A stretch of DNA of 10,993 bases, from assembly GCA_003152795.1 (NCBI GenBank), contig PMBA01000306.1, positions 1 through 10,993 of the forward strand, written 5' to 3'. The notes under the pieces were generated by a model. The model searched no databases. It worked only from the letters and a program-made list of their open reading frames with translations, and was not told the DNA's origin. The stretch is from Acidobacteriaceae bacterium. GTDB taxonomy: Bacteria > Acidobacteriota > Terriglobia > Terriglobales > Acidobacteriaceae. Position 1 is the stretch's first letter; every line of letters starts with the position of its first letter. Of this stretch, positions 1-4,547 are shown piece by piece. The position numbers and the translations under genes are program-made.

Positions 1-1029
1 GTGTACTTCTTCGCAATCGAGACCACCAGCCGCAAGTTCGCTTCAATCAGCTCGCGCTTGGCGTGCTCCGCGTCCATGTCCCCCTGGATGATCTCGCGCT
101 GCGTGCGCTTGAGCTCCTGGAACAACAGGCCCGCTTCCGCTTCCAGCTTTTCCAGCTCTCCGCGGACCGCTCGTGACTGCTTCTTGTATTCCTTGCGCTG
201 CTCTTCGCTGCGCGTCGCCTCCGCCCGCTTCTCCAGATTCTGGATCTGCCGGTCCAGCGAGCGCATCCCGTCCACCGTCCGATTAACCCGGTCGATGAGC
301 CGTTTCCGTTCGTTGTTGGTGAAGCCCAGTTTCCGCACCGCGATCGAAGTGCGCACCACCGCCCGCGCCAGATTGATGCGGTATCGCCGATGGTCCCGCG
401 GCCGCTTCTTCTGGTTCACCGTCGCCAGCTTCTCGACGAACGGCATCACTTTCTTGTATAGCTTGTCCAGCGCGTGGATCTTGGCGAGAAATTCCTTCAG
501 TCGCTTCTCGACAATCTCCTCCGTGATCTCCTCTTCGTCGAACGTTACCAGCTCTTTAATCGACCGGACGCCCTTCTCCAGGTCGTCCCCCAAAGCCAGC
601 AGTTCGCGAATCACGATCGGTGACCGCGATAGCGCTTTCAGAACGCGGTTCTGCCCCCGCTCAATCCTCTTGGCGATTTCAACTTCGCCTTCCCGCGTGA
701 GCAGCGGCACTGTCCCCATCTCCCGCAAATACATGCGGACCGGGTCATTGGTTTTTTCTAAAGCGCCGGGGGTTAAGTCGAGTTCGACGTCCTCCGAGCT
801 CTTCATCCACTTCTTCGAATTTTTTTTCCAGATCGGTCGAAGGCCCTTTCGAGCTCTCCAGTACATCGATTCCTTGCGTCCCGATCGTGGTTAGCAGATC
901 TTCCAGGTCCTCAGGAGAGTGCACATCGTGCGGGATAAGGTCGTTGACCTGATCATAGGTCAGATATCCCTTCTCTTTGCCTGCGTCGATCAGCTTTTTT
1001 ATATCGTCGTACTTGTCGTCAAGTGCCAA
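1..1029 (-). CDS. rpoD: RNA polymerase primary sigma factor RpoD (3'-truncated by window, apparent frameshift)
   Basis: Housekeeping sigma-70 that directs core RNA polymerase to promoters. The first frame (1029 down to 745) encodes region 1.1 (for example KKLIDAGKEKGYLTYDQVND and LTTIGTQGIDVLES) and then hits a stop after 94 codons. A second frame, from about 794 down to the window edge, encodes region 1.2 (GALEKTNDPVRMYLREMGTV), a charged non-conserved region and the start of region 2.1 (ELIEANLRLVVSIAKKY). Together they match one RpoD, so the break lies between about 790 and 827. That stretch contains an A8 run (820-827 on the minus strand) and a GGAGGA (790-795). The start is UUG at 1029, preceded by GAGG with 7-nt spacing; the nearby ATG is out of frame. 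dnaG lies 232 bp upstream on the same strand. An intact rpoD is essential, so a sequencing or assembly indel is the likeliest cause; a split or slippage-read gene is the alternative. Confidence 0.95.
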
Positions 1030-1261: not shown

Positions 1262-3298
1262 CTAAGCCGCATCTCCTAACCCCGGATCCATCAGCGCCCT
1301 CTTCAATCGCACTTTTTCCTGCAAAAGCGCCTGCCTTTCCTCCATCCCCAGCCCCGCGCGCTGCAACCCGACCTGCACTTCCTCCAGCCTCCGCCGCAGG
1401 TAGATCCGCCGCAACCCCCGCACCGCCCCTTCCACCGTTTCCGGCGTCAGGTCTTCCTCCTCGTCCATCAAAATCGACGCCAGCAGCCGCCGGTCTTCTT
1501 CCGTCTTCGGCAACGCCATTACATCCGCCGTCTCCGTCCCTCCCTCCAGCAATGCCTCGATCAACGATTGCGACGCCAATCCCTCATACAGATGTTCCGA
1601 CTGCAGCGCGAATTGCGCCTGCCGCGCCGGATCGAATTCCTCTTCCGTTCCCTCCCGCGCCGAACTCCTCTCTCCACTTTCTTGCATCTGCGTCGCCGAC
1701 GCCAGCGCCCGGATCAGCACCCGTTCCGCCCCCGTGATCTGCGTCGCCGCCGTCGCGTTCACCTGCGTCGCCGACCGGTTGGTCGCAACATGCTTCAATT
1801 CCTGCCGTAGCACCGCCGAATCGATTCCCAGCTTCTGCGAAATCTCCAGCGCCAGTTCATCCCGCACAATCCGGCTCGGCACCCGCTGTATGTGCGGCAG
1901 AAGATGGTTCACCGCCTTCACCTTGCTATCCGCATTCCGCCCCGGAAACATCGCCCGCACCCGGTCGATCAGGTAGTCAAAATATTTCTGCGAACTCTTC
2001 AGCGCCCCGCCATACGCCTCTTTGCCCTTCCGCCGGATATACAGATCCGGGTCGTATCCCGTCTCCAGCGTCAGCACCCGGATATTGAATTCCTCTTCCA
2101 CCAGCAGCCCCAGCGTTCGCTCCGTTGCCCGCGCCCCCGCCGTGTCCGGATCGAAGTTCACCACCACATTCTTCGAAAATCGTCCCAGCAGTTTCGCCTG
2201 CAACTCCGTGAACGCCGTCCCCGAACTCGCAATCACATTGTGAAAGCCCGCTGCGTACACCGATATGCAATCCATCTGTCCTTCGACCAGGATCGAGTAC
2301 TCCAGCTTCCGAATCGCCTCTTTCGCGTTGTCCAGATTGAACAGCACCCGCGATTTCGAGTAAATCGCCGTCTCCGGAGAATTCAGATATTTCGGCCCTG
2401 CCTTCTCATCCGTAGCCAGCGTCCTTCCCGTAAACGCAATCACCTTCCCCTGGTCGTTGCAGATCGGAAACATCACCCGATTGCGAAATTTGGAGTAGAT
2501 GGCAGCGGCGGCTCTTGGCTCTTGCCTTGCCTTTGGCTCGAAGCCCGCGCCGTCCCCTGTTCGCTCCTCGTCGTTCGCTGTTGGCCGTTCGTCGTTCGCC
2601 TCGGAGTTCCCCACTGCATTGTCGGAACCGCCCCCATTCTTGTCATCCTGAGCGGAGCGAAGGACCTGCTTTCCCTGAGACCTGACAGCTGAGACCTGAG
2701 ACCTGTCTTCCTGACGGCTGTCTTCCTTCCAGGAAAACAGGCCACTCTCCCGCAACAACTCTTCGCCGAACTCGCGCCGCAGCGCATCCCGCAGCAAGAA
2801 GCCCGAATCCGGTGCATACCCAATCCGAAACCGCGCAATCGTCTCCCCATCAAGCCCCCGCGTCTTCAAATATTCGCGGGCATTCGCACCCTCCGGACGC
2901 CGCAGACATTCCTGGAAAAACGCCGCCGCCCGCACATGCACATCGAGCAGCGCCATCCGAACCTGAGCCTCCCGCGCCTCCGCCGGACTGGAAAAGCTGA
3001 CCTTCGGCATCGCCACGCCCACCTTCTGCGCAATCAGCCGAACCGCCTCCGGGAACGTGATGTTCTCTACCTTCTGCACAAAAGTAAAAACATCTCCCGA
3101 CTCCCCGCACCCAAAGCAGTGATAAAACTGCCGTGTCGCATGTACCGAGAACGAAGCCGTCTTCTCCGCATGAAACGGACATAGCCCCGAAAAATTCTGC
3201 GCCCCAGCCTTCTTCAGCTTGACGTAGTCCCCCACAATCCGGACGATGTCCGCCTGCTGCTTCAGCGTCTCTTTGAAGTTGTCGGAAGAAAAAGTCAT
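1262..3298 (-). CDS. dnaG: DNA primase DnaG with a repeat-derived insertion
   Basis: Synthesises RNA primers at the replication fork. 678 aa from the ATG at 3298. An in-frame TTG nine codons upstream was rejected, because the family start motif (SDNFKETLKQQADIVRIVGDYV) follows this ATG directly. Domains: CHC2 zinc-binding domain with C40, H43, C61 and C64; RNAP basic domain (YSKFRNRVMFPIC, then KYLNSPET near 303-310); TOPRIM domain with catalytic E339 in VEGQMD and D383/D385 in FDPDTAG; then a helical C-terminal region in the position of the DnaB-binding domain. Residues 194-266 are a low-complexity insertion between LFSWKED and IYSKF, where relatives such as the E. coli protein have a short loop. 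GGAG lies 15 nt before the ATG, rather far. It is encoded upstream of rpoD on the same strand. The family call is very firm. Confidence 0.97.
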   Translation of the reverse strand: MTFSSDNFKETLKQQADIVRIVGDYVKLKKAGAQNFSGLCPFHAEKTASFSVHATRQFYHCFGCGESGDVFTFVQKVENITFPEAVRLIAQKVGVAMPKVSFSSPAEAREAQVRMALLDVHVRAAAFFQECLRRPEGANAREYLKTRGLDGETIARFRIGYAPDSGFLLRDALRREFGEELLRESGLFSWKEDSRQEDRSQVSAVRSQGKQVLRSAQDDKNGGGSDNAVGNSEANDERPTANDEERTGDGAGFEPKARQEPRAAAAIYSKFRNRVMFPICNDQGKVIAFTGRTLATDEKAGPKYLNSPETAIYSKSRVLFNLDNAKEAIRKLEYSILVEGQMDCISVYAAGFHNVIASSGTAFTELQAKLLGRFSKNVVVNFDPDTAGARATERTLGLLVEEEFNIRVLTLETGYDPDLYIRRKGKEAYGGALKSSQKYFDYLIDRVRAMFPGRNADSKVKAVNHLLPHIQRVPSRIVRDELALEISQKLGIDSAVLRQELKHVATNRSATQVNATAATQITGAERVLIRALASATQMQESGERSSAREGTEEEFDPARQAQFALQSEHLYEGLASQSLIEALLEGGTETADVMALPKTEEDRRLLASILMDEEEDLTPETVEGAVRGLRRIYLRRRLEEVQVGLQRAGLGMEERQALLQEKVRLKRALMDPGLGDAA
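2568..2599 (-). repeat. 21-bp-period direct repeat (GCGAACGACGA) within dnaG
   Basis: GCGAACGACGA occurs at 2568-2578 and 2589-2599 (written on the minus strand), exactly 21 bp apart. This gives a 7-residue periodicity in the protein: ANDERPT then ANDEERT. Confidence 0.7.
2642..2663. repeat. Copy of the GTCATCCTGAGCGGAGCGAAG interspersed repeat type
   Basis: The plus strand reads GTCATCCTGAGCGGAGCG then AAGG. I recall near-identical sequences as abundant, mostly intergenic, short dispersed repeats in Acidobacteriota and other soil-bacterial genomes; this is from memory and not checked. Here it is translated within dnaG as LRSAQDD. Only one copy lies in this window. Confidence 0.55.
2675..2705. 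repeat. Triple CTGAGACCTG repeat within dnaG
   Basis: CTGAGACCTG occurs three times on the plus strand: 2675-2684, 2689-2698 and 2696-2705. The last two overlap by 3 bp. Translated on the minus strand it contributes the SQVSAVRSQ stretch of the primase insertion. Confidence 0.75.
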
Positions 3299-3324
3299 GC
3301 CGGGCGCACACCACTCCAGTTGCA

Positions 3325-3330
3325 ATTATG
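3325..3330 (-). promoter_or_regulatory. Possible -10 element for dnaG
   Basis: CATAAT on the minus strand matches TATAAT at 5 of 6 positions and would place the start of transcription near 3318, about 20 nt before the dnaG ATG. The -35 region (TTCGCT at 17-bp spacing) is poor. This is a weak call. Confidence 0.3.
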
Positions 3331-3385
3331 AGGGCTGGAAGGGGTCGAGCGAAATAGCGTAGAAATCACAACGAATTGGAAAAGC

Positions 3386-3394
3386 TGTGGATAT
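3386..3394 (-). promoter_or_regulatory. DnaA-box-like sequence upstream of dnaG
   Basis: The minus strand reads ATATCCACA, 8 of 9 to the DnaA consensus TTATCCACA, about 90 bp upstream of the primase start. A single near-consensus box can occur by chance. Binding is only a possibility. Confidence 0.2.
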
Positions 3395-3416
3395 CGGCGC
3401 GCCAATGTTGATCGGC

Positions 3417-3440
3417 GAGGAAAAGGCAGAGGAAAAGGCA
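3417..3440. repeat. Perfect 12-bp tandem duplication
   Basis: GAGGAAAAGGCA occurs twice with no gap (3417-3428 and 3429-3440) between the terminator-like hairpin and dnaG. It reads TGCCTTTTCCTC twice on the dnaG strand, giving a pyrimidine-rich leader segment. Confidence 0.8.
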
Positions 3441-3481
3441 ATTGATCGCCCTGCCGGACCTCGCTGCGCCGGACGACCACC

Positions 3482-3720
3482 GCCATAAAAACAAATGCGG
3501 CCCGGGCCAGCCACCCAAGCCGCATTGTTGTCGTGGACATTCTGGCTGCCGTCTTTCGCCGCAGCGAAAGATCATCGCGCAACTGCACTCCGTAGAGCGC
3601 CCTCCGCGATGCTCACCTGAAGCTTGCGCTTCAGCGTTTCGATTCAGCGCTTCCATCCTCCTGGAAGGAGGACTTCTGAGGAGGCCGCGAAGCCCGGGCA
3701 CCGGCGCACTGGACATGCGT
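3482..3720 (-). ncRNA. Candidate structured RNA between ruvA and dnaG, family unknown
   Basis: No protein gene is supported in 3299-3959. On the minus strand this part folds into a series of perfect or near-perfect hairpins, in order: TCCTCC/GGAGGA (3672-3656); CTGAAGC-GCAA-GCTTCAG (3634-3617), a GNRA loop; CATCGCG/CGCGATG (3611-3605 with 3579-3573) enclosing GCGCTC-TACG-GAGTGC (3600-3585, one G-U pair), a UNCG loop; TCTTTCGC-TGCG-GCGAAAGA (3571-3552), a second UNCG loop closed by C-G; and then a terminator-like hairpin. Read on the plus strand the same loops are TTGC, CGTA and CGCA, which are not stable tetraloop classes, so the minus strand is the likely RNA strand. The 5' end and promoter are not clear; another inverted repeat (CCGGCG/CGCCGG, 3731-3760) may belong to it. 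It could be an independent sRNA or a dnaG leader element. I could not match it to RNase P, tmRNA, SRP RNA or 6S RNA motifs. Confidence 0.5.
3487..3526 (-). terminator. Rho-independent-like terminator on the minus strand
   Basis: AATGCGGC (3526-3519) pairs perfectly with GCCGCATT (3501-3494), with a possible inner GGG/CCC pairing. On the minus strand it is followed by TGTTTTTAT (T5 at 3491-3487). The opposite flank is not T-rich, so it would act on minus-strand transcripts arriving from upstream of 3526, before dnaG begins at 3298. Confidence 0.6.
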
Positions 3721-3859
3721 CGAATTTCCCCCGGCGATTCACTCTCGAGAAAACCGCCGGCAACGCTGAACCCTTCTCGGAACAGATTCAGAACATCTCA
3801 CGCTTTTGACTGCGATCACTTTGCGGCACCCCTGAAATTAACGCAACCGCAAATTGCTC

Positions 3860-3904
3860 CTCCACTGTGTAAAAACTGTGGAGCGCGGAAACTTCCTGTG
3901 GAAG
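3860..3904. promoter_or_regulatory. Operator-like inverted and direct repeats upstream of ruvA
   Basis: CTCCAC (3860-3865) and GTGGAG (3878-3883) form an inverted repeat with a 12-bp spacer. CTTCCTGTGGAAG (3892-3904) is a second one. CTGTGGA recurs exactly 20 bp apart (3876-3882 and 3896-3902), about two helical turns. The block lies 45-75 bp before the ruvA -10 element, where a regulator could bind. No GAAC-N4-GTTC-type LexA site is visible here. The regulator is unknown. Confidence 0.3.
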
Positions 3905-3946
3905 CAAAAGGAAAACTGTCTTTTTATTCCCACCGCGACCCTGCCG

Positions 3947-3952
3947 TACAAT
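3947..3952 (+). promoter_or_regulatory. -10 element of ruvA, predicting a leaderless mRNA
   Basis: TACAAT (5 of 6 to TATAAT) ends 7 nt before the A of the ruvA ATG at 3960, so transcription would begin at or next to the start codon. No Shine-Dalgarno sequence precedes the ATG (the bases are AAGCCCG). The -35 region is poor. Confidence 0.5.
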
Positions 3953-3959
3953 AAGCCCG

Positions 3960-4547
3960 ATGATTGCTCACCTTCGCGGAACGCTGCTCGCCAAACATCC
4001 CAACCAGGCCATCGTCGAAACTCACGGCGTCGGCTATGACGTTGCCATCAGCGTGCCCACGTTTTCCGAAATGCCCGCGCCCGGCGCTGAAGTCTCGCTC
4101 CACATTCACACCCATGTTCGCGAGGATGCGCTCAGCCTCTACGGATTCTTGCGCCTCGCCGAAAAAAAGCTCTTTGAGAAGCTGCTCACCGTCAGCGGCA
4201 TCGGCCCCACCCTCGCCATTAAAATCTTGAGCGGCATGCCCGCCGACGACATGATCGCAGCGATTCGCGGAGGCGACCTCGCTCGCCTCACCCGCATTCC
4301 CGGAATCGGCAGGAAGACGGCCGAGCGCATGGTGCTGGAACTGCGCGACAAGCTGCCGGCGCCCGGAGCGTCCGAGGTGAGCCCGTCGCTCGCCACTCCC
4401 GTCGAGGAAGACGTCGTTTCCGCTCTGCTCAATCTCGGCTATCAGCGCGCCCCGGCGGAAAGGGCGCTGCTCGCCGCCCGCAGCGGCCAGGGCCCTCAAA
4501 CTTTTGACGTGCTCTTTCGCGAAGCCCTGGGCGCCCTGTCAAAGTGA
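3960..4547 (+). CDS. ruvA: Holliday junction branch-migration protein RuvA
   Basis: Tetrameric DNA-binding subunit that recognises four-way junctions and loads the RuvB helicase during recombinational repair. 195 aa, close to the usual length of about 200. Seen: the N-terminal OB-fold start (MIAHLRGTLL, GVGYDV) and the conserved THVREDALSLYGF (residues 51-63); two helix-hairpin-helix motifs, LTVSGIGPTLAIKIL (76-90) and LTRIPGIGRKTAERM (110-124); a Pro/Ala-rich linker (about 133-147); and a C-terminal domain III (EEDVVSALLNLGYQ) that contacts RuvB. The start fits the family exactly although no Shine-Dalgarno site is present. ruvC and ruvB are not in the window; instead an M19 peptidase follows after 57 bp. 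The call is firm. Confidence 0.97.
   Translation: MIAHLRGTLLAKHPNQAIVETHGVGYDVAISVPTFSEMPAPGAEVSLHIHTHVREDALSLYGFLRLAEKKLFEKLLTVSGIGPTLAIKILSGMPADDMIAAIRGGDLARLTRIPGIGRKTAERMVLELRDKLPAPGASEVSPSLATPVEEDVVSALLNLGYQRAPAERALLAARSGQGPQTFDVLFREALGALSK

Follow-up and report, generated by a model that had tools for sequence, protein, structure and literature searches.

What occupies the 661 bp between dnaG, on the minus strand, and ruvA, on the plus strand (positions 3299-3959), in this member of the Acidobacteriaceae? The window that we analysed is a stretch of 10,993 nucleotides (G000:C229:1-10993) from a draft assembly that is 82% complete. An earlier note on this DNA had seen no credible protein gene in the gap, and our results confirm this. 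Both borders were re-mapped, neither of the two spacer ORFs that we tried has a Pfam match, and 101 of 108 insertions and deletions relative to the window sequence are not multiples of three, which excludes a protein gene and points to noncoding DNA. A near-consensus DnaA box, ATATCCACA, is situated on the minus strand between dnaG and the element described below (3386-3394).

The earlier note had instead proposed a structured RNA at 3482-3720, with consecutive hairpins and a terminator-like stem on the minus strand. All of these are present. The predicted fold of minus strand 3482-3813 has an energy of -160.8 kcal/mol (z -5.69), which none of 100 shuffled sequences equalled, whereas the plus strand gives a z of -3.07, with 1 shuffle in 100 as good. 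The fold consists of a closing stem (P1), a second stem (P2), hairpins P3 to P8 and a core hairpin, and is followed after P1 by a terminator hairpin that is GC-rich and runs into a U tract, as in an intrinsic terminator. The element is located where the note placed it, but is larger: the closing stem reaches 3802, the predicted start lies near 3811 and a conserved promoter region extends to 3915. From the sequence comparisons described below, we conclude that minus strand 3487-3811 is a structured noncoding RNA gene of about 325 nt, with its 3' end at the U tract and its 5' end predicted from the promoter (Table 1).

Table 1. Features of the RNA locus and of the genes around it, in window coordinates. 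R1 is the covariance model of the terminator described in the text.
Feature	Positions	Strand	Basis or remark
Sigma-70 gene, partial	3-866	-	
dnaG	1262-3298	-	ATG at 3298; longest ORF extends to 3325
Noncoding RNA gene (putative), ~325 nt	3487-3811	-	3' end at U tract; 5' end predicted from promoter
Terminator hairpin with invariant 7-nt loop UGGCUGG (loop 3507-3513)	3490-3529	-	model R1; U tract ends at 3487
Closing stem P1, 3' strand	3532-3544	-	fold; genus alignment; strand-swap test
Hairpin P8, TGCG loop here, variable among relatives	3553-3570	-	fold; genus alignment
Hairpin P7, TACG loop here, variable among relatives	3572-3612	-	fold; genus alignment
Hairpin P6, GNRA loop GCAA	3617-3634	-	fold; genus alignment
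Stem P2, 3' strand	3641-3652	-	strand-swap test; genus alignment
Hairpin P5	3653-3673	-	fold; genus alignment
Central core motif GGGCUUCGCGGCCUCCUC; other genera usually GGGCGUUGCGGCCUCCUC	3678-3695	-	
Hairpin P4; absent from L037, L049 and L067	3701-3722	-	genus alignment
Hairpin P3, conserved apical sequence around CUCGAGAG/CUCGAGGG	3731-3760	-	genus alignment
Stem P2, 5' strand	3762-3772	-	strand-swap test; genus alignment
Closing stem P1, 5' strand	3789-3802	-	fold; genus alignment; strand-swap test
Predicted -10 hexamer CAAAGT	3818-3823	-	
Predicted -35 hexamer TTGCGT, 17 bp from -10	3841-3846	-	
Array of three CACA boxes that resemble DnaA boxes; phasing 20 and 11 bp; 19 bp to the downstream -35	3866-3901	-	
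Conserved TTTTCC upstream of boxes	3910-3915	-	
ruvA	3960-4547	+	start 3960

Comparison with relatives provides further insight into this structure. A DNA search with the spacer finds a matching block in nearly all relatives within the genus, and the similarity ends at the U tract (3487) except in the closest of them. The RNA is present in 23 of 24 genomes of the genus, counting its own, the one exception (G012) being 88% complete. In an alignment of 21 genus sequences 91.5% of the cells of the fold pair, and 31 of 118 pairs change on both sides as against 16.4 in shuffles, a value as high being reached in none of 500. Sliding the partners by one column cuts the covariation score to a third, although the unslid version is favoured here by having been derived from one of the aligned sequences. 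Across 61 terminator hairpins, 13 of the 16 pairs of the stem change on both sides.

A plain MAFFT alignment of the family gave almost no structure with RNAalifold, and we therefore tested the helices by register, by strand swaps and in the genus alignment. In 64 sequences the two strands of P1 pair better within a species than after exchange between species, and so do those of P2 (for each stem, 0 of 2000 permutations did as well). Two control pairings gave 619 and 1696 of 2000; these permutations ignore relatedness. Within the stems G-U cells outnumber A-C cells by 335 to 61, and the structure therefore belongs to the minus strand. The proposed stems thus carry the compensatory changes that would be expected of a conserved RNA, but a strict test of all pairs against a tree-simulated (alisim) null on the plain MAFFT alignment found no significant pair, with either G-test or pairing-covariance scores. 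When only the proposed pairs are compared with the tree-simulated null, 7 of 13 terminator pairs reach p<0.01 and 2 of 11 P3 pairs reach p<0.001, both uncorrected; P3 was recognised in 57 of the 64 sequences, and its pairs were counted in the 40 full-length ones. We take this last test as clear backing for the terminator stem and weak backing for P3.

The earlier note had counted GNRA and UNCG tetraloops among the signs of a real RNA. This holds for the GNRA loop, which is retained together with its C-G closing pair in 19 of the 21 genus sequences, but not for the two UNCG loops, where 12 and 17 different strings occur at the two sites (closing bases included) and UNCG itself, as counted from the loop table, recurs without being conserved, in 9/21 and 6/21 sequences. 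What is conserved, judging from these alignments, is the terminator heptaloop UGGCUGG, which is invariant, and the central core motif, which is nearly so. The heptaloop is identical in 61/61 terminator hairpins, loci that were themselves anchored by the exact loop. In an earlier scan, which allowed two mismatches in ten and whose score favoured exact matches, it was the best loop at 61 of 63 loci, the exceptions being L021, where the contig end cuts the hairpin, and L069.

In the predicted fold the inner five bases of the heptaloop are open and the outer U and G are paired. The core loop is mostly open; GCCU within the core is mostly paired and the CCUC after it mostly free. The complement of the heptaloop, CCAGCC, occurs in none of the 64 RNAs across the family where shuffles predict 6.8, which rules against a heptaloop pseudoknot and suggests that the loop is kept free. 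Because both loops are predicted to be open, and complements of the heptaloop are avoided, it is likely that they are contact sites for a partner RNA or protein. We found no enrichment of the loop complement within the RNA or over the next 400 nt. The core and the loop bear what we take to be a partial likeness to the 3' end of 16S rRNA. GGAGG, as looked for downstream under an anti-Shine-Dalgarno role of the core, is not enriched (12 of 64 as against 20.3 in shuffles). Two sets of variants were noticed: L037, L049 and L067 have a changed core, GCGGCTCC, as well as lacking P4, and a divergent relative (L130, in G052) has the terminator hairpin with the exact loop and a likely closing stem, with no recognisable core motif.

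A first blastn search recovered pieces of the RNA from 49 of 200 family genomes, and from such loci we built two covariance models, one of the terminator (R1) and one of the core (R2). R1 matches 58 of 250 family genomes (E up to 1e-6; 25 of 79 genera) and R2 matches 56 (E up to 1e-3; 24 of 79 genera), and in 53 of the 250 the two lie next to each other on one contig, within about 300 nt. Seven of these double matches (G061, G149, G480, G490, G499, G506 and G512) had been used for neither model. Each listed genome has one match per model. Three genomes match R2 only, of which G097 and G109 also have the hairpin and G215 looks false. Among 299 genomes of the class, the matches that held on reading were all inside the family, with the proviso that the first pass of the models scores few candidates per genome and may miss weak relatives. 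We rejected R1 matches in three f7 genomes and in genus g42, which are without the UGGCUGG loop, and R2 matches in G215 and G312, which have only a core-like string (3 and 2 changes respectively) and no R1 match. Carriers of the core motif that have names, among 56 stretches, are uncultured Acidobacteriota of subdivision 1, such as Candidatus Sulfotelmatobacter and Terriglobia MAGs; five stretches from unrelated organisms (L076, L083, L087, L110 and L123) were taken as chance matches. About three quarters of the sampled family genomes have no match to the RNA, and its role is therefore not essential to the family.

The RNA, which the earlier note could not assign to a family, also matches none that we could find. 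None of the 4227 families of Rfam release 15, 6S RNA (RF00013) and the acidobacterial motifs included, reaches its gathering score in the window. At E up to 10 three matches fall within 3300-4000, all far below cut-off, and a scan of 9 of the 49 loci outside the genus returned only a tRNA gene. Several familiar RNAs were considered individually. 6S RNA has no match in the window, and that of this genome is at G000:C221. RNase P RNA (RF00010) has no match at the new RNA and is found elsewhere in 4 of 6 genomes tested, though neither in the draft itself (G000) nor in G043. There is no tmRNA in the window by RF00023 or ARAGORN; it scores above cut-off elsewhere in 5 of the 6 genomes and below cut-off in the draft itself. 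A GGGUGG string presumably accounts for some likeness to a T-box leader, for which there is no Rfam match and where the identified neighbours are dnaB, dnaG, rpoD and ruvA. In searches of open-access literature on acidobacterial structured RNAs, small RNAs, DnaA-linked RNAs and loader promoters, no description of the element appeared among the matches listed. The RNA is thus previously uncatalogued, and its carriers form one group of soil bacteria that are uncultured.

Upstream of the RNA there is a conserved array, which reads TTTTCC, three CACA boxes on one strand, 19 bp, TTGCG, 17 bp and CAAAGT. It was counted at 70 of 72 loci (L021 and L043 being dropped). The strict pair CCACA-N7-CACA is present in 56 of the 70, compared with 0.2% of 3500 shuffles, and the triple-box pattern in 54, compared with none. 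In a slightly wider stretch the pair is found at 57 loci; TTG follows exactly 19 bp on in 56 of these, and N17 and a CAAAGT-like hexamer then follow in 51 of the 56. Box 3 is near -60 of the predicted start, a distance common for activator sites. One box, TTTTACACA, agrees fully with the DnaA-box consensus TTWTNCACA, as quoted in an excerpt of PMC5043019, and the other two agree with it in part.

The 11-bp phased motif (CCACA-N7-CACA) recurs 3' of dnaA in 5 of 6 genomes, and is missing at the corresponding locus of G016 (L148). In the genome of the window it comes immediately after the stop codon of dnaA; for the other four genomes we could not place that codon. Within 36.6 kb of the contig the motif occurs only beside dnaA, which is 25 kb from the RNA, and at the RNA itself, and within 39 kb of G016 only at the RNA. 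From this recurrence we propose that the array is probably bound by DnaA or by a protein with the same DNA specificity. A cluster of DnaA-box-like sequences just downstream of dnaA (G000:C229:28250-28650) is a candidate oriC.

The same promoter was found at a second gene. We searched 25 genomes, chosen as carriers of the RNA, for CCACA-N13..16-CCACA-N7-CACA and obtained 43 sites, compared with 3 for a reversed control pattern. Of the 43, as assigned by position and by tblastn, 24 are at the RNA and 12 precede a helicase-loader gene, leaving 7 elsewhere; the loader gene therefore accounts for 12 of the 19 sites that are not at the RNA. The exact pattern gave no loader site in the other 13 genomes. 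All 12 sites are on the strand of the loader gene, and within about 105 bp of its estimated start except for L186, where the alignment is partial. The 19-bp spacing to TTG is kept in 11 of the 12, and a CARAGT or CACAGT hexamer follows after 17 or 18 bp in 10. As the loader locus was outside the query, it argues independently for the promoter being a regulatory unit linked to replication.

The partner gene codes for a helicase loader of the DnaC/DnaI type, an AAA+ protein that matches Pfam IstB_IS21. This assignment was made by running two of the 12 proteins against Pfam and NCBIfam and one against solved structures, the other sites being assigned by tblastn. Among solved structures the L187 protein is closest to DnaC 3ecc and 3ec2, followed by the helicase loader 2w58. 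The loader proteins score below the NCBIfam equivalog cut-offs for DnaI or DnaC (73-85 versus 228 bits and 52-54 versus 357 bits). The gene is located at L187:1614-2381, at L188:1640-2461 and at 10 further loci in several Acidobacteriota genera, and in L187, L188 and L164 a second similar ORF comes after it. Acidobacteriota are not among the phyla given with a domesticated dna[CI] in the excerpt of PMC5109545, and the acidobacterial loader may be a further domestication. The arrays at L196 and L197, which precede unrelated ORFs in two genera, look alike by eye (TTGTGCACAGCC.TCCACA...CCACAGG..ATGCACAAT) and are perhaps one mobile promoter.

Because of these promoter and fold comparisons, the explanation that we favour, and consider reasonably probable, is that the locus encodes a single-copy, trans-acting RNA of about 325 nt, belonging to one Acidobacteriota family and co-regulated with the helicase loader, probably by DnaA. 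In this model DnaA, or another protein that recognises the same DNA sequence, would bind the three helically phased boxes and activate transcription from just upstream of the -35, and the RNA and the helicase loader would be made together when DnaA is active. The transcript would fold into a multi-branched RNA closed by P1 and containing P2 to P8, and would stop at the intrinsic terminator. Its action in trans would depend on two sites that are conserved and exposed, namely the heptaloop and, in the core, the loop (N)UUGCG together with the CCUC that follows; these would pair with mRNAs or hold a protein. In this way the RNA would tie helicase loading, or the expression of other genes, to the initiation of replication.

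A different view of the same signals is that the RNA is a cis-acting leader, with a terminator that serves as an attenuator of read-through into the primosome gene that follows and an array that is the promoter of that gene. The earlier note had offered a choice between a lineage-specific sRNA and a leader controlling dnaG and rpoD; a lineage-specific structured RNA on the minus strand, ending at about 3487, is borne out, but the leader is not. The joint absence of covariation and conservation, which the note had named as refuting the RNA, is not what we found. It is true that dnaG follows in the window, and that among the 49 loci outside the genus, where neighbours were counted from mechanically called ORFs, the flank that was retrieved includes dnaB (the representative has both DnaB_N and DnaB_C) in 42, and in 34 dnaB is the next ORF on the same strand. 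However, dnaB is only the second ORF in 6 of the 49, with the intervening ORF on the opposite strand in 5, and is unseen in 7; three of these loci (L043, L056 and L145) end early. It lies upstream and in the opposite orientation in two (L037 and L049). In L037 dnaB and rpoD are on one strand and the RNA is inverted between them, together with its promoter array (one mismatch), and in L049 the RNA is opposite to dnaB at a distance of 1.6 kb. The gene rpoD is within reach in 13 of the 49. Within the genus, ruvA is upstream of the RNA in 21 of 23 loci, but what lies within about 1.5 kb downstream differs, being dnaG in 8 of 22, dnaB in 1 and neither in 13, and only in the closest relatives does the similarity, as noted above, continue past the U tract. 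We noticed no competing antiterminator. Because its neighbours vary and it is inverted along with its promoter, we regard the RNA as a unit with a promoter of its own, near the primosome genes but not fused to them, and a leader as unlikely.

We think it rather less likely still that the locus is a DNA element, either a DnaA-titration or origin-like site or a single-strand site of primosome assembly. An array of DnaA-box-like sequences, dnaB or dnaG as neighbours and strong hairpins would all suit such an element, but it would not account for a promoter geometry held in common with a protein gene, for a terminator with a U tract or for G-U wobbles that are specific to one strand, and a separate cluster of boxes exists at dnaA on the same contig. 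Chance folding of a GC-rich spacer, combined with an ordinary ruvA or dnaG terminator, can practically be dismissed: plain terminators did give weak R1 matches elsewhere and the strict all-pairs covariation test was negative, but chance would have to produce the distribution in the genus and in 53 family genomes, the fold score, the covarying stems and the promoter array together. An explanation that departs from ours in the regulator only, with the same RNA and regulon and an array bound by something other than DnaA, is improbable but deserves more weight than these or the leader. The boxes GCTTCCACA and CGCTCCACA fit the E. coli consensus TTWTNCACA only in part, and a DnaA box does not include the conserved TTTTCC; against this, the box phasing recurs 3' of dnaA and the partner gene is a helicase loader.

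If the RNA is indeed a trans-acting partner of the loader gene, as we favour, a bolder version of that explanation is conceivable, which we put forward tentatively. DnaA may run a minimal regulon of two members in this lineage, the helicase-loader gene and a dedicated RNA beside dnaB, and the RNA may take part directly in helicase loading or control its dosage; it could, for instance, bind the loader or DnaB, or regulate their translation by feedback. If true, a noncoding RNA would be built into the initiation of replication. To our knowledge, few bacterial noncoding RNAs are tied to chromosome replication. The defined RNA, its promoter and the co-regulated loader make both the question of DnaA control and that of the partner of the RNA testable in the Acidobacteriota, a phylum abundant in soils that has received little study of this kind.

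Like 6S RNA, RNase P RNA and tmRNA the new RNA appears to be standalone and structured, and the latter two are of similar size. Acido-1 (RF01686) and Acido-Lenti-1 (RF01687) are likewise candidate noncoding RNAs of Acidobacteria, as given in an excerpt of PMC2864571, although, unlike their members, the new RNA is matched by no acidobacterial Rfam motif. The partner gene is of the same AAA+ type as the DnaC/DnaI loaders treated in the DciA and Dna[CI] work, where the excerpt of PMC5109545 mentions no RNA with a loader. The nearest system in concept, as described in PMC8959179, is CcnA of Caulobacter crescentus, a noncoding RNA that acts in trans and is linked both to a cell-cycle regulator and to the origin of replication; it lies in oriC and is presumably activated by CtrA. 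The new RNA differs in being located about 25 kb from dnaA, in having DnaA-box-like sites and in belonging to another phylum.
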